Source: Plantactinospora sp. BC1
GTDB lineage: Bacteria; Actinomycetota; Actinomycetes; Mycobacteriales; Micromonosporaceae
Direction: 5' to 3'
DNA: 64,000 nt
Assembly (NCBI RefSeq): GCF_003030345.1
Contig: NZ_CP028158.1
Location: 2,480,001 to 2,544,000, forward strand
The notes below the pieces were generated by a model, which saw nothing but the letters and a program-made list of their open reading frames with translations, was not told the DNA's origin and did not search any database. Below, one piece after another: positions 34,573 to 49,136 of the stretch (the stretch's first letter is position 1; each line of letters opens with the position of its first letter). Position numbers and translations under genes: made by a program.

Positions 34573-34711
34573 GCCCGCCGCACCTCTGTGCCTGGTCCGC
34601 CGCACTTCGTCCCGGGCCGACCCGGCTCCTAAAGATCGACAACTGTCAATGGATGGCTTCCTGGATCGAGGCCGGTGCCCGAAAGGGCAGACACATAACC
34701 GAGGAGGTTCC

Positions 34712-37321
34712 GTGAGTACCACCGACACCCGGCGGAGACATCGTCGTCGCGGGCTCCTGCTCGCGACCGGCTCCGCGTTCGTCGCGGTCGCCCTCGCGAT
34801 CGGGATGGGCGCCACCGCCCAGGCCGCGACGCTCTTCTCCGACGACTTCGAGGACGGCAATTCCACCGGCTGGACCACGTCCGGCGGCTCCTGGTCCGTC
34901 GACACCGACGGCAGCCGGGTGTACCGGCAGTCCGGCACCAGCAGCGACGCCCGGGCCCTGGCCGGCACCACGAGCTGGGCCAACTACACCGTGCAGACCC
35001 GGGTCAAGCCGACCGCGTTCAACGGCTCCAACCGGTTCGTCGCGCTGCTGGCCCGGGTGCAGAGCAACACCAGCTACTACTACCTGGCGCTGCGCAGCAA
35101 CAACACCGTCGAGCTGAAGCGGCTCTCCGGCGGCTCCTCGACCACTTTGGACACCGCCAGCGTGACCGTCGGGCTGAACAACTGGCACACGCTGCGGCTC
35201 GACGTGTCGGGCAGCTCGCTGCGCGGGTACGTCAACGGCACGCTGCTCACCGAGGGCACCGACAGCTCCTACGGCACCGGCCGGATCGGGGTGGCGACCT
35301 TCAACGCCACCGCCAACTTCGACGACGTACTCGTCAGCGACAGCGTGAGCACCCCGACCACGCCGCCGACCGGTGGCCCGACCACCACCCCGCCGCCGAC
35401 CGGCAACCCCGGCGCCAACGTGGCCGACGGCTGGGCCGGAGTCAACGCGCTCGGCCAGAACGGCACCACCGGAGGGGCGGGCGGCCCGACCGTCACCGTC
35501 AACTCGGCGGCGCAGTTCGTCACCGAGGCGGCCTCGGCCGGACCGAAGATCATCCAGGTGAGCGGGATGATCGACCTGCCCGGCCCGATGCACGAGGTCA
35601 GCTCGGACAAGACGATCGTCGGCCTCGGTGCCAACTCCGGCTTCACCGGCGGCGGCCTCAACATCGGCCTGCCGATCGACGACGACATCACCTCGCCGCC
35701 GTCGAACGCCGTGCACAACGTCATCCTGCGGAACCTCAACTTCCGGGACTGGGACGACGACGCGGTCAACGTGCAGATGTTCTCGCACCACATCTGGATC
35801 GACCACAACACCTGGACCACCGGTGGCGACGGCGGCGTCGACGTCAAGCGCGGCTCGTCGTACGTGACGATCTCGTACAACCACGCGGACGGCACCGACA
35901 AGAACATGCTGCTCGGGCACGACGACGGCAACGCCGCCCAGGACGTCGGCTATCTGAAGGTCAGCTACCACCACAACTTCTTCGACAACACCAACCAGCG
36001 CAACCCCCGGGTCCGCTTCGGCGACCAGGTGCACGTCTACAACAACTACTACCTGAACACCGGGAACTACGGTGTCGCGTCGACCGAGAACGCCGGCGTG
36101 ATCGTCGAGGGCAACTACTTCGAGAACGTCGACGACCCGTACCACCTCGGCGAGGGGGACTCCGGGGACGGCCGGCTGGTGGCCCGGAACAACTGCCTGA
36201 TCAACTCGGGCTCGGGGCAGACCGGCGGCAGCGTCAGCAACCCGCCGTACCCGTACACCATCCAGACCGCCTGCGACATGAAGGCCGTCGTCTCGGCGCA
36301 GGCCGGGGTGGGCCGGGTCGGGTTGCCCGGCGGCCCGACGACGAACCCGACCACCAACCCGACGACGCCCGCGCCCACCACGCCGGCCGCCACGACGCCG
36401 CCGCCGACCAGCGGCCCGCCGCAGACCGGTCTGGTCGGCTGGGCCGCCCAGGCCGGTGGCACCACCGGCGGGGCCGGCGGTGCCACGGTGACGGTGAGCA
36501 GCTTCGCCGACTTCCGGACCCAGGCGCAGTCCTCGGGAGCCAGGACCATCCTGGTCAACGGCATGCTCAGCGGCTCGGGGACCGTGGAGATCACGGCGAA
36601 CAAGACGATCCGCGGCGTCGGGGCGAACTCCGGCGTCTCCGGCACCACCCTCAACATCGAGGACATGCAGCCGGCCAACGTGATCATCCAGAACATGAAC
36701 ATCCGTGGGGTGACCGGCGGGGACGCGATACAGATCGAGAACGCCACCCACATCTGGCTCGACCACAACACGTTCTCCAGCACGATCGAGGACGATCCCG
36801 ACTTCTACGACGGCATGATCGACATCACCCACGCCGGTGACTACATCACGGTGTCCTGGAACGTCGTCCGCAACCACTGGAAGACCTCGCTGGTCGGCCA
36901 CTCCGACGGCAACTCCGGCGAGGACGTGGGTCACCTGCGGGTCACGTACCACCACAACTGGTTCGACCGGACCTTCGAGCGCAGCCCCCGGGTGCGCTTC
37001 GGCGAGACGGTACACGTCTTCAACAACTACTACTCCAACGTCAACAACAACGCCGACTCGTACGCGATCGCGTCCACCATGAATGCCGGGGTACTCGTCG
37101 AAGCCAACGTCTTCGAGAACGTGCAGCAGGCGTGCTGGTCGGCGAGCGGGTACGCCGACTCCGACCCCGGACGGCTGGTCGCCCGGAACAACTCGCTGAC
37201 CAACTCCGGCCCGTGCGAGGTCAACGGCTCGGTGGCCGCGGTCCCGTACGGCTACACCGCCGACAACGTCGGCACGGTCAAGGCATCCGTCACGGCGGGT
37301 GCGGGTGCGGGCAGGCTCTGA
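34712..37321 (+). CDS. Bimodular secreted pectate lyase with two PL1 catalytic domains, 869 aa
   Basis: GTG 34712 follows GAGGAGG. Signal peptide ends about AQA/A (residue 38). Order: laminin-G-like binding module (40-205), Thr/Pro linker (213-235), first PL1 domain (236-535: MFSHHIWIDHNTWTTGG, SYHHNFFDNTNQRNPRVRFG), a second Thr/Pro linker rich in NPTTNPTT (538-573), and a second PL1 domain (574-869: ATHIWLDHNTFSS, TYHHNWFDRTFERSPRVRFG). Both catalytic Arg/Asp-rich centres look intact. The two domains are clearly different in sequence, so they are an old fusion, not a recent duplication, and may prefer different methylation or chain-length states. Confidence 0.93.
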   Translation: MSTTDTRRRHRRRGLLLATGSAFVAVALAIGMGATAQAATLFSDDFEDGNSTGWTTSGGSWSVDTDGSRVYRQSGTSSDARALAGTTSWANYTVQTRVKPTAFNGSNRFVALLARVQSNTSYYYLALRSNNTVELKRLSGGSSTTLDTASVTVGLNNWHTLRLDVSGSSLRGYVNGTLLTEGTDSSYGTGRIGVATFNATANFDDVLVSDSVSTPTTPPTGGPTTTPPPTGNPGANVADGWAGVNALGQNGTTGGAGGPTVTVNSAAQFVTEAASAGPKIIQVSGMIDLPGPMHEVSSDKTIVGLGANSGFTGGGLNIGLPIDDDITSPPSNAVHNVILRNLNFRDWDDDAVNVQMFSHHIWIDHNTWTTGGDGGVDVKRGSSYVTISYNHADGTDKNMLLGHDDGNAAQDVGYLKVSYHHNFFDNTNQRNPRVRFGDQVHVYNNYYLNTGNYGVASTENAGVIVEGNYFENVDDPYHLGEGDSGDGRLVARNNCLINSGSGQTGGSVSNPPYPYTIQTACDMKAVVSAQAGVGRVGLPGGPTTNPTTNPTTPAPTTPAATTPPPTSGPPQTGLVGWAAQAGGTTGGAGGATVTVSSFADFRTQAQSSGARTILVNGMLSGSGTVEITANKTIRGVGANSGVSGTTLNIEDMQPANVIIQNMNIRGVTGGDAIQIENATHIWLDHNTFSSTIEDDPDFYDGMIDITHAGDYITVSWNVVRNHWKTSLVGHSDGNSGEDVGHLRVTYHHNWFDRTFERSPRVRFGETVHVFNNYYSNVNNNADSYAIASTMNAGVLVEANVFENVQQACWSASGYADSDPGRLVARNNSLTNSGPCEVNGSVAAVPYGYTADNVGTVKASVTAGAGAGRL

Positions 37322-37483: not shown

Positions 37484-38575
<1,092 letters not shown>

Positions 38576-38896
38576 GGTGCAGCGCTTCCTTCCACCGGCA
38601 GGAACGTGCCGGACGATCCGAGTGAAAGAACGACCGGCGCGCTACCGCACCGGTCCGTGGACGGCATCCGGCCGGCCGTGGCCAGCGTCGGGTGTCATCC
38701 GCGTCACGCCACGGTAAACGGGTTTTTCTCACATGCCAAGGTGAGGCGGCGTTTCTGGGATGTACCTGACGAACATTTCGGGCATCCGGGCATGGTCCGT
38801 CACCAAGCGCTTCCGAGGCCACCCGGTGTCGGGTATCGGAATCGGTGCCACCCATGGTAGGAGGGCATCTGTCGCTATGCTGACCACGAACATCGC
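38576..38896. other. Intergenic region between the ATPase gene and tRNA-Thr
   Basis: No gene is seen. It must hold the promoter of the minus-strand ATPase gene and that of the tRNA. TATGCT at 38876-38881 is a plausible -10 for the tRNA, 15 bp before its 5' end; a good -35 is not evident. An open frame antisense to the tRNA extends into this region, but it is an artefact of tRNA sequence. Confidence 0.4.
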
Positions 38897-38973
38897 GCCC
38901 CTGTAGCTCAGTTGGCCAGAGCACTCGCCTTGTAAGCGAGTGGTCGTCGGTTCGAGTCCGACCGGGGGCTCCA
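38897..38973 (+). tRNA. tRNA-Thr (anticodon TGT)
   Basis: A full cloverleaf can be drawn. Acceptor GCCCCTG pairs with CGGGGGC (one G.T), discriminator T then an encoded CCA. The anticodon stem CTCGC/GCGAG encloses the loop CTTGTAA, giving anticodon TGT for threonine. T arm GTCGG-TTCGAGT-CCGAC. The 3' half is repeated at 48381-48425, showing that a genomic island used this gene as its integration site while keeping it intact. Confidence 0.95.
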
Positions 38974-38981
38974 ACTACACC
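38929..38981 (+). repeat. Left attachment repeat (attL) inside tRNA-Thr
   Basis: 53 bp from CTTGTAAGCGAG through the tRNA 3' end to CTCCAACTACACC, identical to 48381-48433. Sequences diverge immediately on the right side (AGGCG here, GGGAC at the other copy). Confidence 0.92.
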
Positions 38982-39020
38982 AGGCGTTCCGCGACGGGAG
39001 CCCGTTCGGTCGGCCGGGTT

Positions 39021-39031
39021 GACAGCAACGC
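39021..39031. repeat. Putative integrase arm-type site, left
   Basis: GACAGCAACGC occurs here, 40 bp inside attL, and twice near the right end (48267-48277 and 48279-48289), and I noticed it nowhere else in the window on reading. Tyrosine integrases bind such short repeats beside the att core. Confidence 0.5.
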
Positions 39032-39034
39032 CGA

Positions 39035-39277
39035 TCATGACAGCCGCCCGTCGAGCTTGCCGAGCGCTTGACGCATCGCGTCAAGATTGGCGTGAGCGTA
39101 GACCTTGAAAGTGATTTTCACGTCGGCATGCCGGGCGATGGCTTGGACGACATGCGGCGGGACACCCAGCTCCATCAGCAGCGATACGACAGTGTGTCGT
39201 AGATCGTGCAGGCGGACGCCGGGCAACCCGGCAGTCTCCCGGAGCAACTGTGTCGTCGAAGACATCTGGGAGCCCAA
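39035..39277 (-). pseudogene. Tyrosine integrase remnant (C-terminal 80 residues)
   Basis: The remaining frame encodes the C-terminal catalytic part: LHDLRHTVVSLLMELGVPPHVVQAIARHADVKITFKVYAHAN, with the HxxR box (HDLRH), the second His (RHAD) and the nucleophile Tyr (VYAHAN). The first catalytic Arg, the core-binding and the arm-binding domains are missing; a normal integrase has about 370-450 residues. The expected upstream coding sequence on this strand is not found. It ends about 50 bp from attL, exactly where an island integrase should be. Confidence 0.85.
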
Positions 39278-39911
39278 GAACGGCTAGCGACCTCTGGACT
39301 CGGGGCCGCAGCGTAGAGACGGTGTGGCCTCTTTGTCTCCCTGTTTAGATGTGTGCGACGGGAAGGAGCGCGGCCGGCTGCCGGCGAAGGTGGTTCAAAC
39401 TCTCTGTACGTCTTCAAGGCGGCCCTGAACGGGCCGCAAGCGCCGCCACCTGGGCGCGCGCCGACCGCTGCCGCTGTCGCTCTGCGGCCGTCACGCCGGA
39501 TGCCCGGCGGCTGGCGCGGAGAGCGGGAAGCCCGGAGGGCCGCCGCAGAACGACAGACCTTGAGGGCTGTGGTGGTGGGCTGGCAGCCGGCCGGGCCGCG
39601 CGGCCACGAGCCCGCCCGGCGTAGGGGAGCGCACTCCGGCCGCGTCGGCGAGCTGGCGGCGGTCGCGGGGTTGCGGTTAGGGCGCCTCCGGCGGGGGCGC
39701 TCCGGCTCCAGGATGGCCGGGGCTGCGCGTCGGGTCCAGGTCCGTGGGTGGTTGCGGTAGGCCATCCCGCCTGCCATCGACCCGGGCAAGCCGAGCAGAC
39801 CACCGCCCGACCCGCCAGCGTCCGAACCTGCGTCAAGGTCCGCTTGACGTGGCGGGCCGGGCGGCGGCCCGCTCCCCAGAGGACGGGTCGACGGCAAACG
39901 GGATGGCGAAG
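39278..39911. other. Gene-free or decayed stretch beside the integrase remnant
   Basis: About 630 bp. Long open frames exist on both strands but all are Arg/Pro/Ala-rich and resemble no family I know. The missing integrase part is not recognisable here in any frame, so it seems to have been deleted, not frameshifted. I see no clear regulatory signal. Confidence 0.4.
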
Positions 39912-40976
39912 CTAGCTGCTGGTCCGCGCCGTAGAGCACGGCTCCGAAGCAAATCCTGACGCAACCAGTCGGTCGATCGCTCGATCAATGTGATTGGGAG
40001 TGAAGAGCTTCGCCTTGCGAGGTGTCCAGGACGAGACGTAGTCGTAGACGCTAGGTCGATCGCGCAATGCAGGCGTGGCGTGGGTGAGGGCCCAATGGAC
40101 CGTGGAAAGAAGCTCAAGCCCGTAGGGCGTCTCCCAACCAGCCACTAGTCGCGACACGGCCATCAGATGCTCCAGCGTTGCTGAATGATCATCGAGGTAG
40201 TGTCGAGCTTCCACGTCCGCGCCATCAAGGACCGAAATTTGCGGCTCCCTACTTCGGTCGCCATATCCGGAAGTGAAGTGCCCCTCCATCGTTACGAGCA
40301 CGTGGTTCAAGTTCTCGGCGTAAGGTCCGTAACGGGCGCGTACGTAGTTCAGTTTGAGCGCCTCGCCGCTTTCCTGAAGGAAGTACGCCAGCTTCTGCAC
40401 TTCTAGCGCCGAGAGTCGGAACGAATCAGCTTCACGGTATTGCTTCAAGAGCAGCAGCAACGACGCACGACCTAACGTCATGTTAGGGCGCTTCGTGCGG
40501 ATAGGCATTTGCTCTGCTTCAGGAGCGCCGTTAGGAACGAACAGTAGGACGTCCGCGTCGATGCCAGCGAGGCGCTGGATGATCAGCTCGCGCACTTCGC
40601 TCCATTGCAGTCCGCCGTTCCCGCATCCCAGCGGGGGAATCGCAATAGAACGGATCCCGTGCTCGTGTATGACCTCGACGAGGTCGTGGAGCCCGGCATC
40701 GATATCTTGGATACGACTCCCGCCCCTCCAGTGACGCTTGGTGGGGAAGTTGATGATGTATCGGGGGGATGTCAGCTGCCCTGTCTCCCACACGAACATC
40801 TTGCCTGGGACGACTTCACCCTGTTTTGCCGCTCGCTCGTACGCTCGGAAGTTGCCAGGGAAGGCTTGGCGGAACTGTAGCGCTATCCCCTTACCTGCCA
40901 CACCCACCGTGTTGACGGTATTAACCAGGGCATCAGCTTCTGCACGTAGAAGATTGCCTGTCAGTTCCTTGATCAC
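39912..40976 (-). CDS. darG: DarG antitoxin: macro-domain DNA ADP-ribosyl glycohydrolase, 354 aa
   Basis: DarG removes ADP-ribose from thymidine on DNA and binds DarT. The macro domain (about 1-155) has ALVNTVNTVGVAGKGIALQF and AIPPLGCGNGGLQW, the ADP-ribose binding loops. The C-terminal part (about 165-354: SLLLLLKQYREADSFRLSALEVQKLAYFL, then ARYGPYAENL) is the DarT-binding domain found in full-length DarG. I choose GTG 40976 because GGGAGGTG stands five bases upstream, although the frame is open to 41009. It follows darT by 17 bp in one operon. The visibly lower GC differs from the chromosome. Confidence 0.93.
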   Translation of the reverse strand: MIKELTGNLLRAEADALVNTVNTVGVAGKGIALQFRQAFPGNFRAYERAAKQGEVVPGKMFVWETGQLTSPRYIINFPTKRHWRGGSRIQDIDAGLHDLVEVIHEHGIRSIAIPPLGCGNGGLQWSEVRELIIQRLAGIDADVLLFVPNGAPEAEQMPIRTKRPNMTLGRASLLLLLKQYREADSFRLSALEVQKLAYFLQESGEALKLNYVRARYGPYAENLNHVLVTMEGHFTSGYGDRSREPQISVLDGADVEARHYLDDHSATLEHLMAVSRLVAGWETPYGLELLSTVHWALTHATPALRDRPSVYDYVSSWTPRKAKLFTPNHIDRAIDRLVASGFASEPCSTARTSS

Positions 40977-40993
40977 TTTTTCACCTCCCAATC

Positions 40994-41620
40994 CTAGCCA
41001 TAGTACCACCCTGGACGCTTGATGCAGCGTATGCCGAGGGAGTGCTTCATCACGATTTCCTCTAGCGCTAAGCGCACTGACTCCGTTCGCGCGCCGAGGG
41101 CCATGATTGCCGGTAATGGCACCCGCTCCCAGACTAGAAACTCCGCCTGCCGGCGCCGCTTTCGGTCGGGGTCGGCGTCTGTGTCATTCCAGTACTTCTG
41201 TTCCATCAGCGGCAAGTCGACCTGCTCCAGGTCCCGCAGGTCGTTATAGAATGCTTTTGGCTCACGGATTGGATGCCCATCCGTAAAGGCAAATGGGAAC
41301 CCATTCTGGACTATAGTCTCGGCTGTTGTGGCAAAGTAGATGATATCGTCCTGATTCTCGGGCTTCCCGGTCACGTTCCCGTTTTTGTAAGTAAACAACA
41401 TCGGTGAACGGGTTCCGAAATAGAAGGGTACATACTTGTCGAGCGTTTCCCCCGGCGGAACCTCCACGAGTGTAATCGCCCGTTGTTCCTTCAGATTCGG
41501 ATAAGCAATATTCCGTGCCGCCTGTCCTGAGGCGCGACACAGGCTGTCACAGAGGAGAGCTCCCGCCTCGATAACCTTCTCCAGGTTTGTGATGTGCGTG
41601 AAGTGGTAGATGGGCGTCAC
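40994..41620 (-). CDS. darT: DarT toxin: DNA thymidine ADP-ribosyltransferase (DUF4433), 208 aa
   Basis: DarT uses NAD+ to ADP-ribosylate thymidine in single-stranded DNA, blocking replication; as a toxin-antitoxin pair with DarG it defends against phages. IYHFTHITNLEKVIEAGAL is the NAD-binding start, followed by VPFYFGTRSPMLFTYKNGN, and the catalytic Glu near residue 161 lies in RRQAEFLVWERVPL, matching the usual position. It starts at GTG 41620 (GAAGGTG upstream). It is probably the first gene of the darT-darG operon. Confidence 0.94.
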   Translation of the reverse strand: MTPIYHFTHITNLEKVIEAGALLCDSLCRASGQAARNIAYPNLKEQRAITLVEVPPGETLDKYVPFYFGTRSPMLFTYKNGNVTGKPENQDDIIYFATTAETIVQNGFPFAFTDGHPIREPKAFYNDLRDLEQVDLPLMEQKYWNDTDADPDRKRRRQAEFLVWERVPLPAIMALGARTESVRLALEEIVMKHSLGIRCIKRPGWYYG

Positions 41621-41805
41621 CTGAGCGTCACCTTCACTTCACCCCTCCCTACCACCGCCCGGTGTGCCGGTGAGCGTACCGGGGGCCTCCGACACTCGCC
41701 ATGGAGCGTGGCAGGAGGACGCGCATGGCGGTGGCACGGCCTGGGGCAGGCAAACATGCCCGCCTCCGACCTTTGATCAGATGACTTTTAAAGGCAAGGC
41801 GGCAG

Positions 41806-43227
41806 TCAGCGCGACGGCCAGCGGGTCGGCTGCGGTGGCATGGCAGTCGGACGGATCCCGAGAGCGACCTGGGCGTGGGTGCGCAGCACCTCGCTGCCGA
41901 TCCCCACAGGAAGGCTGGCGTAGTTGTGGGCCAGCGCGACGGGGATGACCGCATCTTGATAGAGCCGCGTGCCGACGGCGTCGAGGAACTCCAAGCTTGA
42001 CCGGAGCGTGGGATAGGCGGTCAGGTCCACTCCATCCCGATCGTCGATCACGGTGCCACCCTTCAGGCGAGGCACGGACAGGACATGGACGCGCGCGTCA
42101 CGGGTGCGGTAGATGAAGCGGCGACCGAAGTCGGTGTCCCTGCCGTAGGCACTGGCGGGACCGGGGACAACCCACCGTCGCAAGTACCCGTCGGGCAGGG
42201 AGACGAGGGTGCCGGGGGGAAGAAGGCCGAGGGCAGCCAGCTGCCGAGCGTGGTCCACCAGCACCCCAGTCTTCTGTAGCCCGAGGATTGGGGGACTCAA
42301 CCACCCCCTTCTGCTGACGGAGGTGTGCACGGCCTGGAGGAAGCGCTCCGCGTGCCTCTTGAGGTCGGCGGCTGCCCCGCTGACCAGCAGCGGCCCATCG
42401 AGGACGAACGCGGTGTGCTGGTATTCGGTACCACGGGCGAAGCAGCGAATGAACCAGAGGAAGACGAGCACTTCGACAACGCTCATAAGGCGGCCCAGCG
42501 CCATGAGATTGCTGCCCTCGGGGGCAACCTCAATGTGCAACTGAAGGACGTCGATCGGGTAGATCGGCTCATTGCAGCTGGGACACGAGATTGGATCCGC
42601 CCCCACCATGTGCGGCCCGGCGAACCCACACGACGGGCACTTGGACACGGACAGGGACGTCGCCGGGACGTCGGGGGTACCAGTCCACACGTAGAACAAC
42701 ACGTCCAGCAGGGAGGCGAGGTCGTCCTCCCGGTCTCCCATGCGGGGAACCCGGAAAATGGTATCCACAGCTTCGCGGAAGGCCGACTTCTGGTCTTGCC
42801 CGTCCCGATAGTTGATCACGGAGGTGGGGATCACGTTCTTCAGCACGTAGCCGACCGCTGCACGGCCGATCTCTCCGGGGTTGACGAACCGGTCCGAGGG
42901 AGGAGCGAGCATCCGCCGCAGGTCCACATGTGCGACGGCGACCTGCAGGTAGCCGACGCGGGCCGCTGGAAAGTCGGGTAGAACCTCAACTTCCGCTGGG
43001 CTCCCATCGACGGCCACCGCTCGGCTCGTCGGCCGGCTAAGCAGCGGAAGGTCCGGCCCCGAAGTGCGCAGCGCAACGATGTCGTTCTCGATCGCCTGTC
43101 GCGCCTCGGCGCGGTCGGGAAGATTCATGTTGCGCAGCGCCGTGGTCACGGCAGGGTCGGCGACGAGGCCTCGGTGGTTGAGCCGGTCGGCGCGCTCGGA
43201 GCGGCCGTACTCATCGTTGTAGGGCAT
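41806..43227 (-). CDS. NurA-domain nuclease-like protein with zinc ribbon insert, 473 aa
   Basis: NurA is the nuclease partner of the HerA translocase. Visible NurA features are the N-terminal metal-binding VAVDGSPAEVEVLPD, the mid-domain FVLDGPLLVSG, GLQKTGVLVDHARQL, and a C-terminal IPVALAHNYASLPVG. An insert at about residues 196-220 carries two CPSC pairs (KCPSCGF and SCPSCNE), predicting a zinc ribbon. It starts 6 bp after the herA stop on the same strand, so the two form one operon. A role in DNA-end processing as phage defence is inferred from the partner and from the island. Confidence 0.85.
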   Translation of the reverse strand: MPYNDEYGRSERADRLNHRGLVADPAVTTALRNMNLPDRAEARQAIENDIVALRTSGPDLPLLSRPTSRAVAVDGSPAEVEVLPDFPAARVGYLQVAVAHVDLRRMLAPPSDRFVNPGEIGRAAVGYVLKNVIPTSVINYRDGQDQKSAFREAVDTIFRVPRMGDREDDLASLLDVLFYVWTGTPDVPATSLSVSKCPSCGFAGPHMVGADPISCPSCNEPIYPIDVLQLHIEVAPEGSNLMALGRLMSVVEVLVFLWFIRCFARGTEYQHTAFVLDGPLLVSGAAADLKRHAERFLQAVHTSVSRRGWLSPPILGLQKTGVLVDHARQLAALGLLPPGTLVSLPDGYLRRWVVPGPASAYGRDTDFGRRFIYRTRDARVHVLSVPRLKGGTVIDDRDGVDLTAYPTLRSSLEFLDAVGTRLYQDAVIPVALAHNYASLPVGIGSEVLRTHAQVALGIRPTAMPPQPTRWPSR

Positions 43228-43233
43228 GGGGAA

Positions 43234-45402
43234 CTACCACCGATCGTCGAGGTCGCCGCCGAACAGGTCATCACGGTGCACCGGCGCCGCCGGTCCGAGG
43301 GCATCACCGGACGGCAAACCAGGCGGGACCACCTGGGCGGCTTCGGCGGTGGTGCGGGCCGCGGCGATCATGGCCACGTCGAACTTGGCGATCTGAACCG
43401 GCACGATGTACCGCCCGCTCATGGTCTTTAGGCGGACAAAGCCCCGGTCCTCACTGCCCCGGATGGCGTCACCGAAGGACTCGAAGTCGTAGTACTTCGA
43501 CAGTTCGTTGACTTCGTGCTTGCTGTTGAGGTGAGCAACGATCCAGTTGTAGGTGTTGCTCAGGACCTCGTCGGCCACGGAGCGTACCTCCTGGGTGGCG
43601 TACATCAGACCGATCTTGAGCTTGCTTGCGGTCCGCGCGAGCAGCACGTAGGGATCCCGCTCCTGGCTGCCGAACTTCGACTTCTCGAAGAGGGTGTGGG
43701 CCTCCTCGATGACAATCTGCATCTTCGGCGGCTCCTCGTTCTGGCGGAACACTTCCCCACCTTTGTCGAGAACGTGCATGATGATCCGCTCGGAGATCGC
43801 TTGGAGCACCGACTGCGTGCCGCGGGACAGCTCGACGATGACAATCTTCCCCTCGGAAAGCTCGTCGTAGATGTCGAGCGCGAAGTTGCCGTTAGCGTGC
43901 GGATTGTGGAACGGAGCGACGTCGCGCATGCGGGCGATGCCGGCGCGGTTGGTGCTGGACTCGAAGACGCCCATGACGGCCTGGGTAGCCTCTTCGCGCA
44001 GCCAGTAGGCAATGGTGCCCTGGGTCGTGCTCGGCCCTTCGTCCTTGTGCTCGACGAGCCACTCGCAGACCTTGATCAGATCCTGCCGACTCCTGATGGT
44101 GACGCGCCCGCCGCTGACCTTTGTAATCCCGGCCTGTGTGTCGGTGATGATCCGGTCGGCGATCGCGGCCGCCATCTTGAGGCTGTAAAACCATCGCTGG
44201 GGCAGACGAAAGTCTGCCTTCGCAAGCAGGGCGTAGAAGAACATGCGCGCCCGAGCGACGTGGTCCTTCGCGCTGTTGAGCGCCTGCGGGTTCGGGTAGT
44301 CGGCGGGGTCCGGGTCGGAGAGGTCAGCACTGACGAAGCGCGTGACGTACTTGGCGTTACTGGCACCAGCGAGCAGCACGTCCGCAATGACCTGACGCGC
44401 CGGCTCGAGCATCCCCGGATCGAAGAAGTTCAGCTGCAGCGCCCGGCCAGGTTCGTCGGCGCGGAGACCATAGCGATAGATGCTCACGTACTCCGCGCCC
44501 AAGTCGGCCAGCGCTGTGCCGTCCTGCTTGTTGACGTTCGCGTACTCGCCCTGCGGATCGAACAGCAACTGACCGATGCGCTCGCCGTTCTCACAGGCGT
44601 GTCGGAAGACCGCGGTGGTGAGGGTCTTCACGGTGTTGGACTTGCCGGTGCGGGTCATGCCGAAGATGGCGGTCTTCTGCTCAATGAAGTCACCGACCCG
44701 TACGGCGACTGGCACCTCATGCTCCTGGCGCAACTTCGCGCGCCGACGGGTGCTGGCGTACCGCACGTGGCCGATCGGCAGCAGCTGCGGGGCGGTCCCC
44801 TCCTCGGCCTCGGCCTCGGTGACCGATGGGTACGAGGCGATGATCTCCAGCGCCGCCGGGGACGGCTTGAAAACCCGGTAGGAGGTGGCCGCGTAGAGGT
44901 TGTCCAGGTCGCTGCCGAACGCCAGGTACTGCACGCCGTTGGTCGTGACGTCGGCGTAGAAGGTGCCCAGAATGCGGCACCGTAGACCGCTGTACTGCAT
45001 CCGGTCGCGGGTCAGGTTGTCGATCGGGACGGACGACGAGTCCAGGGTGACGGCGGCGGCGTCTGGCGCAGCGTCGCCCCAGACGGCATCGTGCCTGGCG
45101 GCGGCCTCGCGGATCTCGGTCAGCTCGGTCTGACGCGGGATTGGTGCCGTGCCCTCGACGCGCAGCAGCAGCACTTCGTCGTCGTCTTCATTTCCGGCAG
45201 GCACGCCAGCCTGTCGAACGGTCGCCAGCAGGAAGCAGAACTCGGGGATCCCACCGGCTGCCCGCTTCCACGCGTCGTTGGTCACGACAGTGGCGCCCCG
45301 GAAGTCGATGTCGAAGATCCGGCCGACGTCGACTCCGTCCAGCAGAGCGTTGAGGGGGCTCACCTCGGCTTGAGCGCGAGCAGAGCCGATCGGCATGGTC
45401 AT
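43234..45402 (-). CDS. HerA-like hexameric DNA translocase ATPase (DUF87), 722 aa
   Basis: FtsK/HerA-family ATPase. An N-terminal beta-barrel HAS-like part (residues about 1-230, LPIGHVRYAS) precedes Walker A GMTRTGKSNT (about 250-260). LLFDPQGEYANV follows, and Walker B is MQIVIEEAHTL (about 558-568), with a C-terminal arginine-finger region (LLARTASKLKIGLMYATQE, VLSNTYNWIVAHLNSKHEV). GAGAGGAA lies upstream of ATG 45402. It is paired with the NurA-like gene; HerA ATPases coupled to nucleases or NADases are a recurring defence theme. The island setting makes defence more likely than housekeeping repair. Confidence 0.92.
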   Translation of the reverse strand: MTMPIGSARAQAEVSPLNALLDGVDVGRIFDIDFRGATVVTNDAWKRAAGGIPEFCFLLATVRQAGVPAGNEDDDEVLLLRVEGTAPIPRQTELTEIREAAARHDAVWGDAAPDAAAVTLDSSSVPIDNLTRDRMQYSGLRCRILGTFYADVTTNGVQYLAFGSDLDNLYAATSYRVFKPSPAALEIIASYPSVTEAEAEEGTAPQLLPIGHVRYASTRRRAKLRQEHEVPVAVRVGDFIEQKTAIFGMTRTGKSNTVKTLTTAVFRHACENGERIGQLLFDPQGEYANVNKQDGTALADLGAEYVSIYRYGLRADEPGRALQLNFFDPGMLEPARQVIADVLLAGASNAKYVTRFVSADLSDPDPADYPNPQALNSAKDHVARARMFFYALLAKADFRLPQRWFYSLKMAAAIADRIITDTQAGITKVSGGRVTIRSRQDLIKVCEWLVEHKDEGPSTTQGTIAYWLREEATQAVMGVFESSTNRAGIARMRDVAPFHNPHANGNFALDIYDELSEGKIVIVELSRGTQSVLQAISERIIMHVLDKGGEVFRQNEEPPKMQIVIEEAHTLFEKSKFGSQERDPYVLLARTASKLKIGLMYATQEVRSVADEVLSNTYNWIVAHLNSKHEVNELSKYYDFESFGDAIRGSEDRGFVRLKTMSGRYIVPVQIAKFDVAMIAAARTTAEAAQVVPPGLPSGDALGPAAPVHRDDLFGGDLDDRW

Positions 45403-45746
45403 CGCGTTCTGGTTCCTCTCAGCTACTCGTCCGCGGTGCCGGGAAGGCTCGTGATCACGAGCTCTGAAGATCCCGGCGACCGCCTGCAGGTTGTGGCGCT
45501 CAGATCAATGTGGACGCGCGAACGGTACGCCATGCCACCGACAAAGCCAGTCGATCCGGTCTCCGAGGGCCTGGCAGTTCCGGCCGGCCCAACGCTGTAG
45601 GAGGGGTAGCTGGGCAGACCACACCCCGTCTCGATCGGGTCACCGGCGGCAGTTGCGATACGGCAATGATGCCCGACGGTGACGGGTACGTACACCCGAA
45701 GGGGACACGGATATGTCGGCCGTTAGTGGGATCCAGCCGGGGCCTG
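45403..45746. other. Intergenic stretch between herA and the methyltransferase gene
   Basis: 344 bp without a convincing gene; short open frames on both strands show no family signal. It should contain the promoter of the herA-nurA operon and the end of the restriction-modification unit. Confidence 0.4.
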
Positions 45747-46787
45747 CTACGAGCTAAGGACTCTGTAGCGGTCCGACCCTGGTATCAAGCAGAAGTTTGT
45801 GACTAGCAGTTCGTCCTTGACGGTACGTTTCTCTGACCCTGCGGCTGTGTACCGGTGAGAAACATGCAACGTGGCCTGCCCTGGCCGCGCTCTGTACAGG
45901 CCACGGATCGTCTGGTTGTCGTCGTAGGACAGGCACCAGCGATAGGGAGCGTCGGGGCCTAGGGCGTTAGCAAGGTCGCTGTGCTCGGAGCTGTCGAAGG
46001 ACCACTGGTACAGCCATCGGGCTTTGTCGACATACGGTGGATCAAGGTAGACGACCACTTCGCTGGGCTCCAGCATCCCGTAGCGCTTGGGGATGTTGGC
46101 GAGCGCGGTTCGCCAATCGGCTTCCCAAACATCGAGCAGACGGCCCGTGGCAGCCAGCTCTGCGACTCCCTTGATCCGGCGCGTGAGGCCGTCCAAGCCG
46201 AAGCGACAACCGATCTTGTACGCCGAAGTCTGAGCGCGGCCGCCGATCGGGCCGGCACGCCCATGCAAGATGCCTGAGAACGTGGTCCGGTTGAGGAAGA
46301 GACACTTCAGCGCCCGCTCACGACGTCCCCGGGGATTACTGGCACGCCACCAGTCCCATCGGGCGACGGTGACCGGCTCTTCGTGCATCGCATCGATTAG
46401 CCAACGAGCGTCGAACGCTGCTGTCCTCCAAAAGGCGGCGATCAGAGGATCGATGTCAGCAAGTACGCCGTGCTCGACGACACCTGCCCCAAGGAGTCGA
46501 AGGGTTGTCGTGGCGCCGCCGGAGAAGGGTTCGACCACCAGCCGAGGCGGGGGAACGTTCGCTCGGATGAGTGACTCGATGACAGGGACGAGCTGACGCT
46601 TCGCGCCCGGATAGCGTAGCGGGCTGATGACGGAATGTCGGAAGAGTGCTTCATCCGTTAGAGCCGAAGGCTTGTCTAGGACTGCCTCAGGAGGCCACGG
46701 CATCCGGCGCGCGGCGGCCTTCTGCTGGCTTCCCATCGACTGTCCCTCCTGCGTCCCGACTGGGTCGCCGTCGGTGCGCCTGATCAT
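45747..46787 (-). CDS. D12-class N6-adenine DNA methyltransferase (Dam-like), 346 aa
   Basis: Methylates adenine in DNA, probably protecting host DNA from the neighbouring nuclease. AdoMet motif PLRYPGAKRQLV followed by VEPFSGGATTTL, and the catalytic DPPY in VVYLDPPYVDK (about residue 263), are in the order of the alpha/D12 class. Starts at ATG 46787 (GGGGAG upstream) or ATG 46736, which has a better GGAGGG site. It is 27 bp downstream of the endonuclease-like gene. The recognition sequence cannot be read from the sequence. Confidence 0.92.
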   Translation of the reverse strand: MIRRTDGDPVGTQEGQSMGSQQKAAARRMPWPPEAVLDKPSALTDEALFRHSVISPLRYPGAKRQLVPVIESLIRANVPPPRLVVEPFSGGATTTLRLLGAGVVEHGVLADIDPLIAAFWRTAAFDARWLIDAMHEEPVTVARWDWWRASNPRGRRERALKCLFLNRTTFSGILHGRAGPIGGRAQTSAYKIGCRFGLDGLTRRIKGVAELAATGRLLDVWEADWRTALANIPKRYGMLEPSEVVVYLDPPYVDKARWLYQWSFDSSEHSDLANALGPDAPYRWCLSYDDNQTIRGLYRARPGQATLHVSHRYTAAGSEKRTVKDELLVTNFCLIPGSDRYRVLSS

Positions 46788-46814
46788 AGCCAGCTCCCCG
46801 ACAATCCGTAGAGA

Positions 46815-47357
46815 TCAGTACCCGACCAGGAGAACGCCCTCGAAGGGCAGCCGCAGTCGCTGACTTGCGTAGATGGCGTCGAACTGGTCCCGAGCCTCTC
46901 GGAACGCAGCCACGGAAACTTGGCGTCCGTTGCTCTGATGGCGGTACGCGATGGGCAGCAGCAGGGCCAGGTAGCGCGCGTCGAGGATGAGGCTGGTTCG
47001 CACGATGTCGCGGTACACGGCATTGCCCCTTGCGCCACGTCCAGCCTCGACCTCGACAACAATGCCCTCTTTGTCATGGAAGGCGTCGATGTCGTACGAG
47101 ACCTCCGACCGGCCGTTGTCGCCGAACAGCACAGGGCGGCGGATCTTGCCAGCTGATGTCTTGGCCGTTTCGACGGCAAAGCCCAAGGCCGTGAGGCCAG
47201 GGGCAAGATGCTGGAGAACCGTGTCGCTCGTGAGGCCAAGACGGGGGGTAAGGGTCGAGACCGCGGGCTCGGCTGCTGTGACCACAGACAGGAGATCCCC
47301 CACCCAAGCAGGCGGCCGCACGTTTCGGGGATAGTAGTTCCAAGATGGGTACGGCAT
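46815..47357 (-). CDS. Putative type II restriction endonuclease (PD-(D/E)xK, BglII/BstYI-like), 180 aa
   Basis: The core reads VSYDIDAFHDKEGIVVEVEAGRG: an Asp followed ten residues later by ExE, the PD-(D/E)xK arrangement, then NAVYRDIVRTSLILDARYLALLLP, the helix and strand that follow in BglII/BstYI-like enzymes. The length fits a small type II subunit. ATG 47357 is the first gene of a unit with the methyltransferase. The family link is by motif only and could be wrong; a role as an R-M nuclease is strongly supported by the gene pair. Confidence 0.72.
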   Translation of the reverse strand: MPYPSWNYYPRNVRPPAWVGDLLSVVTAAEPAVSTLTPRLGLTSDTVLQHLAPGLTALGFAVETAKTSAGKIRRPVLFGDNGRSEVSYDIDAFHDKEGIVVEVEAGRGARGNAVYRDIVRTSLILDARYLALLLPIAYRHQSNGRQVSVAAFREARDQFDAIYASQRLRLPFEGVLLVGY

Positions 47358-47416
47358 GCCCGAAGGTTAGCTGCCTCATGAAGCCCTAGAAGATCCTCGG
47401 GGGCGCGATCTTGATC

Positions 47417-47974
47417 ATGAGTCAGCAGGTCCTGAGGAACTTGTCGGTGGGTCGCGGCATCGTCCGTAGCATGAATGACGGCATCGAAGTGTCCAAGCCT
47501 CGGCTGCGGATCGAGCTGGTACCGAGACCCCTGTGGGGCAAGACATTGGCCAAGACCCTTCCACGCTCGAAGTGGCGGGCACTCCGTGCCTGGGCGCTCG
47601 GTCGGGCTCATAACGCCTGTGAAGTCTGCGGATTCCGTCCCGTCGACGGCAAGGGTTTGATCTGCCACGAAGTGTGGGAATACGACGACGATCAGATGAT
47701 CCAAACCCTGGCAGGCTTGGAGATCCACTGCACAGAATGCGATCACGTGACGCACTTCGGGCGTACTACAACGCTTGGTCAGCCGGAACTGGTGGCGGCG
47801 GCCCGTGTACGCCTTGGTCGGGTCAATGGATGGCCTCCAGAACAGGTGCGCGCTTATGAACTGGCCGCGCGTGAGCAGTGGCGTGCGAGGAGCGCCCGCG
47901 AGTGGATTCAGGACCTCAGCTGGTATGAACGCTGGCTCGCAGGAGGCACGGAGGAATTTCTGCTCCAGCAGTAG
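47417..47974 (+). CDS. HNH-like zinc-finger nuclease family protein, 185 aa
   Basis: A treble-clef motif pattern: CEVCGF near the middle, then ICHEVWEYDDDQ and IHCTECDHVTHFGRT, giving two Cys pairs and His residues in the order of HNH-type small endonucleases. It is the only island gene on the plus strand, divergent from the restriction unit by about 60 bp. The start could be ATG 47417 or ATG 47471; the latter (MNDGIEVSKPRLRIELVP) begins at the conserved part. It could be an accessory or independent defence nuclease; the function is not certain. Confidence 0.7.
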   Translation: MSQQVLRNLSVGRGIVRSMNDGIEVSKPRLRIELVPRPLWGKTLAKTLPRSKWRALRAWALGRAHNACEVCGFRPVDGKGLICHEVWEYDDDQMIQTLAGLEIHCTECDHVTHFGRTTTLGQPELVAAARVRLGRVNGWPPEQVRAYELAAREQWRARSAREWIQDLSWYERWLAGGTEEFLLQQ

Positions 47975-48266
47975 CGCGGAGGTCTCTTCGTGATCCAGCC
48001 ACCCGAGCAGCCAAGCACCCAACGACGGCGGACACGGACGGACGCAGGAGCGCTTCACTGCGGGCAGGTTCGCAAGCGAGACGTCGGGCAGTGGTGAGGC
48101 AGCAAGAAGGCAGCGCAGACCTTGATCACAGCTCGTGCCAGATGTAACGGGACGGACTGTGTCACCTGCGTGACGACCCCAGTTAGTACCATCCGACAAC
48201 CGCCAACAGCTTGCATCCGCATCCCCCCAGCGGGGGTCAGTCTGACGGGCCGGCGGCACGGCTGTC

Positions 48267-48289
48267 GACAGCAACGCTGACAGCAACGC
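48267..48289. repeat. Two putative integrase arm-type sites, right end
   Basis: GACAGCAACGC at 48267-48277 and 48279-48289 are tandem copies, 12 bp apart, matching 39021-39031 near the left end. They lie in a 400-bp gene-free stretch (47975-48380) before attR, where I see no gene. Confidence 0.5.
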
Positions 48290-48380
48290 CGCCGGCCGGC
48301 GGCACGCTGGCGAGCGCAGGGACGGACGGAGCTTCGAGCGTGCAGCCGTCCCCGGACCTGTGCGGACGCGGTGCACAGAG

Positions 48381-48433
48381 CTTGTAAGCGAGTGGTCGTC
48401 GGTTCGAGTCCGACCGGGGGCTCCAACTACACC
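48381..48433 (+). repeat. Right attachment repeat (attR), a tRNA-Thr 3' fragment
   Basis: Identical to 38929-38981. It holds only the anticodon loop to CCA of tRNA-Thr; no acceptor, D arm or anticodon 5' stem precedes it, so it is not a working tRNA. GCAC 8 bp before the repeat also matches the tRNA, with four mismatches between. Confidence 0.92.
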
Positions 48434-48515
48434 GGGACACCCTCTCGAAGGCGTCAGACGAGCGGGGCGACGCGGCGTAAATCCACCGGCGAACCGGCGG
48501 CCCGGGAGTGGGCGG

Positions 48516-49136
48516 TCACGGGGCGGGTGTCTGCGGAGCCGGGTCGACGACGCAGGCGGTGATCTGCCGTGGTCCCTCGGGCGTCACGACGGTCAGCGTC
48601 AGCAGGGTCGTACCGGTGGGGCAGGTCGGGCCGGGCGGCCCGGGTCCGCCGGAGGGACCGGGTTCGCCCGTCGGGCCGGCGGGTCCCTCCGGGCCGGCGG
48701 GGCCTTCCGGTCCGGTCGGGCCGGCGGCGCCCGGACCCCCGCTCACACCCGGTGGGCCCGGATCGCCGGCCGGACCAGGTTCGCCCGGCGGGCCGGGATC
48801 TCCGGGCGGGCCCGGATCGCCCGGTCGGCCGTCCCGGCCGGGCAGCCCCGGCGGGCCTGGCGGACCCTCCGGTCCGGCCGGGCCCTGCGCGCCGCGCAGG
48901 TTGGCGGGGTCGACGACGCATTCGCCGCCGAGTTGGCGTACCTGCTGGCAGAGCTGCTCGGCGCCGGAGACGGCGGTCGCCGCCCGGCGCTGCTCGACGG
49001 CGGCCTGCCGGCCCAGCCTCGCCCAGGCCCAGCCGCCGGCCGCCGCGACCAGCGCGGTCGCCACCACCACGATGATGAGCCGGCGCCGGATGCGCCGGTC
49101 CATCCGGCGGCGGAAGATTTCCGTCTCCTCGGTCAT
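48516..49136 (-). CDS. Membrane-anchored collagen-like protein, 206 aa
   Basis: An N-terminal basic segment and one membrane helix (about 18-40, [20 protein letters not shown]) precede a short Cys-containing helix and then about 30 uninterrupted Gly-X-Y triplets ([12 protein letters not shown]), a collagen-like triple-helix region, and a 35-residue globular end with two Cys. GAGGAGG lies upstream of ATG 49136. It follows a small coiled-coil gene and a phage-hydrolase-like gene on the same strand. Such collagen-like proteins occur in phage-related and surface structures. Confidence 0.85.

Follow-up and report, generated by a model that had tools for sequence, protein, structure and literature searches.

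A methyltransferase-HerA-NurA module beside a DarTG2 pair in a tRNA-Thr genomic island of Plantactinospora sp. BC1

Islands that carry defence genes are commonplace at tRNA genes. The phosphorothioate system TdpABC comprises the complex of TdpA and TdpB (8wet/8wfd) and TdpC, the sulfur-modifying enzyme. A NurA-superfamily nuclease was reportedly predicted by Iyer et al. in 2004 to be the endonuclease of a novel restriction-modification system. The element ICEth1 of Thermus thermophilus HB27, 14.9 kb long, lies at the 3' end of a tRNA-Ile gene and is flanked by 47-bp repeats. It encodes an XerC-family integrase and a type IIG restriction enzyme, together with a NurA-like nuclease and the HerA-family ATPase TdtA, both required for donation of DNA, and an N4-N6 methylase (PMC5365140). 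DarTG pairs are reported to protect against phages (PMC11543638). Here we describe a 9.45-kb block, bounded by a tRNA-Thr(TGT) gene on one side and a duplicate of the 3' end of that gene on the other, in a window of 64,000 nucleotides (the whole stretch analysed) from the 8.33-Mb genome of the actinomycete Plantactinospora sp. BC1. The block is an acquired island in which a DarTG2 pair lies next to a methyltransferase, a HerA-type ATPase and a NurA-like nuclease. We consider it moderately probable that the latter three form a restriction-modification-like module and that the island serves in defence.

The METHYLTRANSFERASE goes with HerA-NurA. In the island, the three genes are on the minus strand: a NurA-like, TdpB-like nuclease with a zinc ribbon (41806–43227, 473 residues), a HerA-type ATPase/translocase (43234–45402, 722 residues; PF01935 at 3.2e-14, with the family profile matching TdpA at 2e-20) and a D12-class adenine-N6 DNA methyltransferase with a DPPY motif (45747–46787; PF02086 at 1.2e-12), which is about 74% identical to the methyltransferase upstream of HerA-NurA at one of the loci described below (L080). 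The nuclease was identified by fold, the best match of its structure model being TdpB of TdpAB. A profile match of NurA to a designed zinc-finger protein (2i13, 3e-8) was attributed to the zinc ribbon only. The Pfam model of the NurA family, PF09376, has no match in the genome of BC1, which says little about a housekeeping NurA because the model also misses the NurA of the window. An open reading frame at 45423–45695 belongs to no family in Pfam, PADLOC or NCBIfam and was treated as a non-gene.

To place these genes, HerA was searched by alignment against 84,980 species, each represented by one genome, which gave 403 relatives, and the best 80 of the 403 were kept. These 80 loci bear 12 phylum names (52 are from Actinomycetota and 2 are nameless), and many come from metagenome bins. 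NurA adjoins HerA in 79 of them, and in the 80th the contig ends there. A DNA methyltransferase is found near HerA-NurA in 76, either of the D12 class (58 loci: 40 downstream, 16 upstream as in the window, and 2 downstream on the opposite strand) or of the unrelated N4/N6 class (18 loci); at two of the 76 the methyltransferase counted is 1.9 and 2.2 kb distant (L130 and L147). At the four loci that have none, the contig continues downstream for only 1, 16, 29 and 454 bp. Pfam assigns N6_N4_Mtase to the eight open reading frames from which the N4/N6 profile was seeded and to neither of two others sent along. The motifs present are Walker A in all 77 HerA proteins compared, DG-[PSTR]-L in 74 of 77 NurA proteins, DPPY (51) or DPPF (6) in the 57 D12 enzymes, and SPPY in 16 of 17 N4/N6 enzymes, the 17th being cut by a contig end. 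A three-gene set of methyltransferase, HerA and NurA recurs in many bacteria and archaea. HerA relatives also occur in 6 plasmid records, all below 60% identity. At L126 and L136, from two halophilic archaeal genera, the HerA-NurA-N4/N6 loci are near-identical, one of them being on a Halorarius plasmid, which suggests recent transfer. At three loci the HerA gene is split in two (L125 2251–6416, L131 8001–10950 and L146 7890–10022), and at the first two of these an opposite-strand open reading frame, perhaps an insertion element, lies between the pieces.

Among the HerA loci, the closest relatives of the window methyltransferase are those of L080 (73–74%), L076 (64%), L078 (59%) and L087 (58%), all of them upstream of HerA-NurA. 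As this comparison was limited to HerA loci, the methyltransferase alone was searched, as a control, against 394 genomes, with the window's own gene left out. Six relatives at 52–56% identity were found, and all six adjoin NurA (five) or HerA (one); two of these (G101 and G146) had already been met as HerA loci, and the loci extend only about 1.5 kb to each side. Among eleven more distant relatives (33–37%), a single one adjoins NurA. The eleven include a second D12-class methyltransferase of BC1 itself (G000:C1:3930434–3931168), which is 34% identical and has neither HerA nor NurA within about 1.5 kb. As in restriction-modification, then, a methyltransferase is linked to a nuclease, both in the 76 HerA loci and in the independent control. 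The same counts bear on the alternative that HerA-NurA is a DNA-repair pair for end resection next to an orphan methyltransferase: the methyltransferase is near in 76 of 80 loci, HerA-NurA is absent from all six same-genus genomes examined and sits in an island, and the likeness of the nuclease to TdpB is clearly higher, all of which makes a repair pair very improbable.

The methyltransferase and its partners differ in how they are inherited. Across 57 rows with a D12 enzyme, the window included, pairwise identities correlate at 0.98 between HerA and NurA, at 0.61 between HerA and methyltransferase, and at 0.63 between NurA and methyltransferase; the three loci with a split HerA and the one lacking NurA at a contig end (L141) were excluded from correlations and trees. 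HerA and NurA are thus inherited together as a unit, to which the methyltransferase is added as a cassette that can be exchanged. The window itself illustrates this. Compared with L080, HerA is 44%, NurA 34% and the methyltransferase 73% identical, and compared with L075 the figures are 51%, 44% and 49%, such that the cassette of the window derives from another branch than its HerA-NurA pair. In careful trees of 31 rows picked by the author, both forced groupings fail the approximately unbiased test (p 6e-51 and 8e-50), although the groups were defined with the trees already in view and the HerA branches of the window and of L075 are long. Exchange is occasional, since on the HerA tree methyltransferases of like class and position group strongly together (9 changes, compared with a mean of 31.8 after shuffling).

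On the reading that we favour, the three-gene module probably destroys invading DNA that is unmarked. The D12 enzyme would mark host DNA with N6-methyladenine as a self mark, adenine being proposed because of the D12 class of the enzyme, and a HerA hexamer with a NurA dimer, arranged as in TdpAB, would load on invading DNA, pump it and shred it if the mark is missing, as the likeness to TdpAB suggests. We infer the site of methylation, the reading of the mark and the defensive role. A more tentative, wider possibility is that this is a widespread type of restriction and a methylation counterpart of TdpABC, in which HerA-NurA is a fixed, generic restriction arm that reads whether a methyl mark is present, methyltransferases of unrelated classes are swapped from locus to locus, and specificity evolves by cassette exchange. 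If the restriction reading is right, a common HerA-NurA family would restrict DNA with a nuclease arm that is free to work with more than one methyltransferase, the question would arise how a translocase senses base methylation, and three uses of a similar machine could be compared directly: phosphorothioate-gated (TdpAB), methyl-gated (the present module) and DNA-exporting (TdtA). Several points weigh against the restriction-modification reading. The swapping of methyltransferases leaves unexplained how HerA-NurA would recognize the mark. The NurA assignment comes from one structure model of moderate confidence (predicted local distance difference test, pLDDT, 74.5; 40–61 in the other four models), and the seed sequences of the N4/N6 profile came from eight of the 80 loci to which it was then applied. 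The remaining points come from ICEth1, in which loss of the methylase had minor effects on transfer, unlike what is expected of a strict restriction-modification pair (PMC7767461), and in which a comparable set of NurA-like nuclease, TdtA and N4-N6 methylase serves DNA donation (PMC5365140).

ICEth1 indeed offers the strongest functional rival, namely that the island encodes a donation machine in which HerA would pump host DNA out and NurA would trim it. By description, which is the basis of this comparison, the architecture is strikingly alike: both are tRNA-integrated elements with flanking repeats that hold a HerA-family ATPase, a NurA-like nuclease, a methylase and a restriction enzyme (PMC5365140). 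ICEth1 differs in its gene order (NurA-TdtA-methylase), in the N4-N6 class of its methylase, in having an intact integrase and in that donation has been demonstrated. Donation by ICEth1 moreover depends on the competence system of the recipient, of which no counterpart was sought or noticed here, and its TdtA and NurA measure 568 and 377 residues versus 722 and 473 in the island. We regard a donation role as distinctly unlikely.

With TdpABC, the island shares the pair of a TdpA-like HerA and a TdpB-like NurA, and a DNA methyltransferase stands in the place of the sulfur-modifying enzyme. A phosphorothioate-forming enzyme such as TdpC was not found within the locus, and since every island gene has another assignment, no gene is left for it. 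The methyltransferase matches the PADLOC model PD-Lambda-5_B at 7.7e-60, here linked to HerA-NurA, and none of the scanned proteins matches PD-Lambda-5_A. Of the mad models of MADS, mad8 is matched by HerA (8.1e-13) and no other was matched among the same proteins. Judged by titles and the beginnings of abstracts, no paper brought up by the literature searches describes a methyltransferase-HerA-NurA module save those on ICEth1, and words starting with Tdp, HerA or NurA are absent from the text of a review of anti-phage nucleases published in 2026 (PMC12904381). The present analysis adds the near-constant link to a methyltransferase, the finding that one module can hold either of two methyltransferase classes unrelated to each other, and the exchange of cassettes.

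A further alternative concerns the gene next to the methyltransferase. This gene (46815–47357, minus strand) encodes a protein of 180 residues with a nuclease fold of the BamHI/BglII/OkrAI type and an unclear role in the island; its model (pLDDT 67.8) suggests likeness to OkrAI (3odh, Foldseek 9.2e-5), BglII and BamHI by fold only. On their common strand, 27 bp separate the two genes, and at another locus (L186) a relative of the nuclease adjoins an open reading frame read as a cytosine-5 methyltransferase. Hence, nuclease and methyltransferase could be an ordinary type II restriction-modification pair, with HerA-NurA as a separate unit. The distribution of the families argues otherwise. The nuclease family is rare: two draws, of 396 and of 394 genomes, each yielded 4 genomes besides that of BC1, the weakest relative in each draw having an E-value near 6e-4. 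Six of these eight loci were examined, L186 among them, and all six lack HerA, NurA and any methyltransferase of the D12 and N4/N6 families considered here; the pairing by family seen in the window thus recurs in none of these six other loci. Among the 80 HerA loci there is no relative of the nuclease but one weak match (L152, E 0.019), and the methyltransferase family is itself tied to HerA-NurA. What links this nuclease to the methyltransferase of the island is therefore their adjacency, and we hold a type II pair to be unlikely. The nuclease has no match in phage records. An open reading frame of 530 residues (46784–48376, minus strand) overlaps it in another frame; as it matches no Pfam, PADLOC or NCBIfam family, it was treated as a non-gene.

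The second unit of the island is the toxin-antitoxin pair. DarT, a single-stranded DNA ADP-ribosyltransferase toxin (40994–41620, minus strand; NF048013 at 215.9 bits, cut-off 150; PF14487 at 1.5e-51), and its macrodomain antitoxin DarG (39912–41009, minus strand; NF048014 at 442 bits, cut-off 250; Pfam Macro at 2.8e-25) overlap by 16 bp and both exceed the curated cut-offs. The pair is assigned to DarTG2 because DarG carries a macrodomain (subfamily rule in PMC11543638), and it fits that subfamily with nothing unusual noticed. It is not part of the conserved HerA module, as nothing in the 80 HerA loci matches DarT or DarG at E<0.05; DarTG would rather add a second, toxin-based layer. A sequence-only reading of this locus had listed five kinds of nucleic-acid-attacking genes. 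Of these, DarT/DarG and HerA-NurA stand, and the restriction enzyme plus methyltransferase dissolves as an independent kind, since the methyltransferase family goes with HerA-NurA. In place of five kinds there are two coherent units and two genes of uncertain role. The other of these two is an HNH endonuclease of a phage family (47411–47974, plus strand; phrog_5200 at 3.2e-26), with relatives in 232 phage records at less than 60% identity and in 1 of the 80 HerA loci (L116). One member of the phage family is annotated as a homing endonuclease, so the view that all cargo is tied to phage defence or DNA modification is not supported for this gene as regards defence. No conjugation or phage structural gene was recognized among the scanned open reading frames of the island, as had been stated, although weak PHROG matches to terminase subunits occur in HerA (7e-4) and in the HNH protein (0.009).

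The block that holds these genes is a genomic island acquired through a tyrosine recombinase. Its integration site, tRNA-Thr(TGT) at 38897–38973 (plus strand), is the sole tRNA detected in the window by ARAGORN, and a 53-bp repeat from the tRNA 3' end flanks both sides (attL at 38929–38981 and attR at 48381–48433, plus strand). Taken as 38929–38984 and 48381–48436, the direct repeat is identical at 55 of 56 positions (98%), with a start-to-start spacing of 9452. It is not a general repeat within the scope covered: a 341-base query that spans it gave four matches in the genome of BC1, namely itself, the copy at 48381 as the single strong second copy, and two much weaker ones to the tRNA part (51 and 70 bases), with 17 of 110 candidate places scored. 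The G+C content is 64.1% in 38982–48380 versus 72.2% in the remaining window, and lies below that of all 72 overlapping windows of the same length outside the island (69.5 to 74.4%).

Relatives confirm that the block was inserted. In two of six same-genus genomes the site is empty, as the sequence-only reading had predicted, and one repeat copy joins the tRNA side directly to the sequence after window position 48433. In G004, window 38256–38981 aligns to 1–729 and window 48381–49136 to 677–1361 of the locus, so that a single 53-base copy (677–729) serves both flanks; G001 is alike. In two further genomes (G006 and G003) the site is occupied by different DNA, roughly 2.3–3.2 kb long, and in G005 the contig ends there. 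In the last one (G002, L034 1–2639) the tRNA side continues to window 39066, within the integrase relic, and then jumps to 50498, probably through a deletion that removed an element plus right flank. HerA is found in none of the six, for which reason the island was rejected as native to the genus, and in one of 40 relatives overall (G022, 42%). The island and its duplicated tRNA end were thus correctly recognized from the sequence. Neither of the two outcomes that would have refuted that reading, the same genes in place with host-like composition in all relatives or the 53-bp repeat as a general repeat, was obtained.

The claim that the integrase is reduced to 80 residues is likewise borne out. 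The C-terminus of a tyrosine recombinase (39035–39277, minus strand; PF00589 at 3.7e-9) remains, plus scattered homologous DNA, and the integrase is a relic. Its closest relative found, in G016, is 84% identical over 70 residues and has its own frame interrupted by one stop; two separate stretches of the window (38903–39244 and 39785–39908) match the integrase locus of G016. That the island is stranded, fixed in place after loss of mobility, is plausible from the relic; as the repeats are nearly perfect, it would be immobile only in the absence of a related integrase acting in trans. The integrase end and the stretch 39374–39863 (80%) also occur in G003, where different DNA follows. It thus seems that elements have inserted at this site repeatedly, and the integrase end may be the scar of an earlier insertion. 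Between relic and DarG, the non-coding-looking stretch 39372–39863 is 80–87% identical in G003 (L035 1208–1687) and G014 (L179 2602–3001), with 39372–39775 matching DNA of both; its neighbours differ in the two genomes, making it a travelling piece.

The surroundings have features of their own. Just beyond the island, the right flank holds 18-bp CCGGGC-rich repeats (48748–48827), and in G003 an open reading frame over the region matching these repeats (L035 3927–4976) appears to encode a Gly-Pro-rich, collagen-like protein. To the left, 34649–37321 (plus strand) encodes a pectate-lyase-like protein with 3-keto-disaccharide-hydrolase and lectin-like domains.

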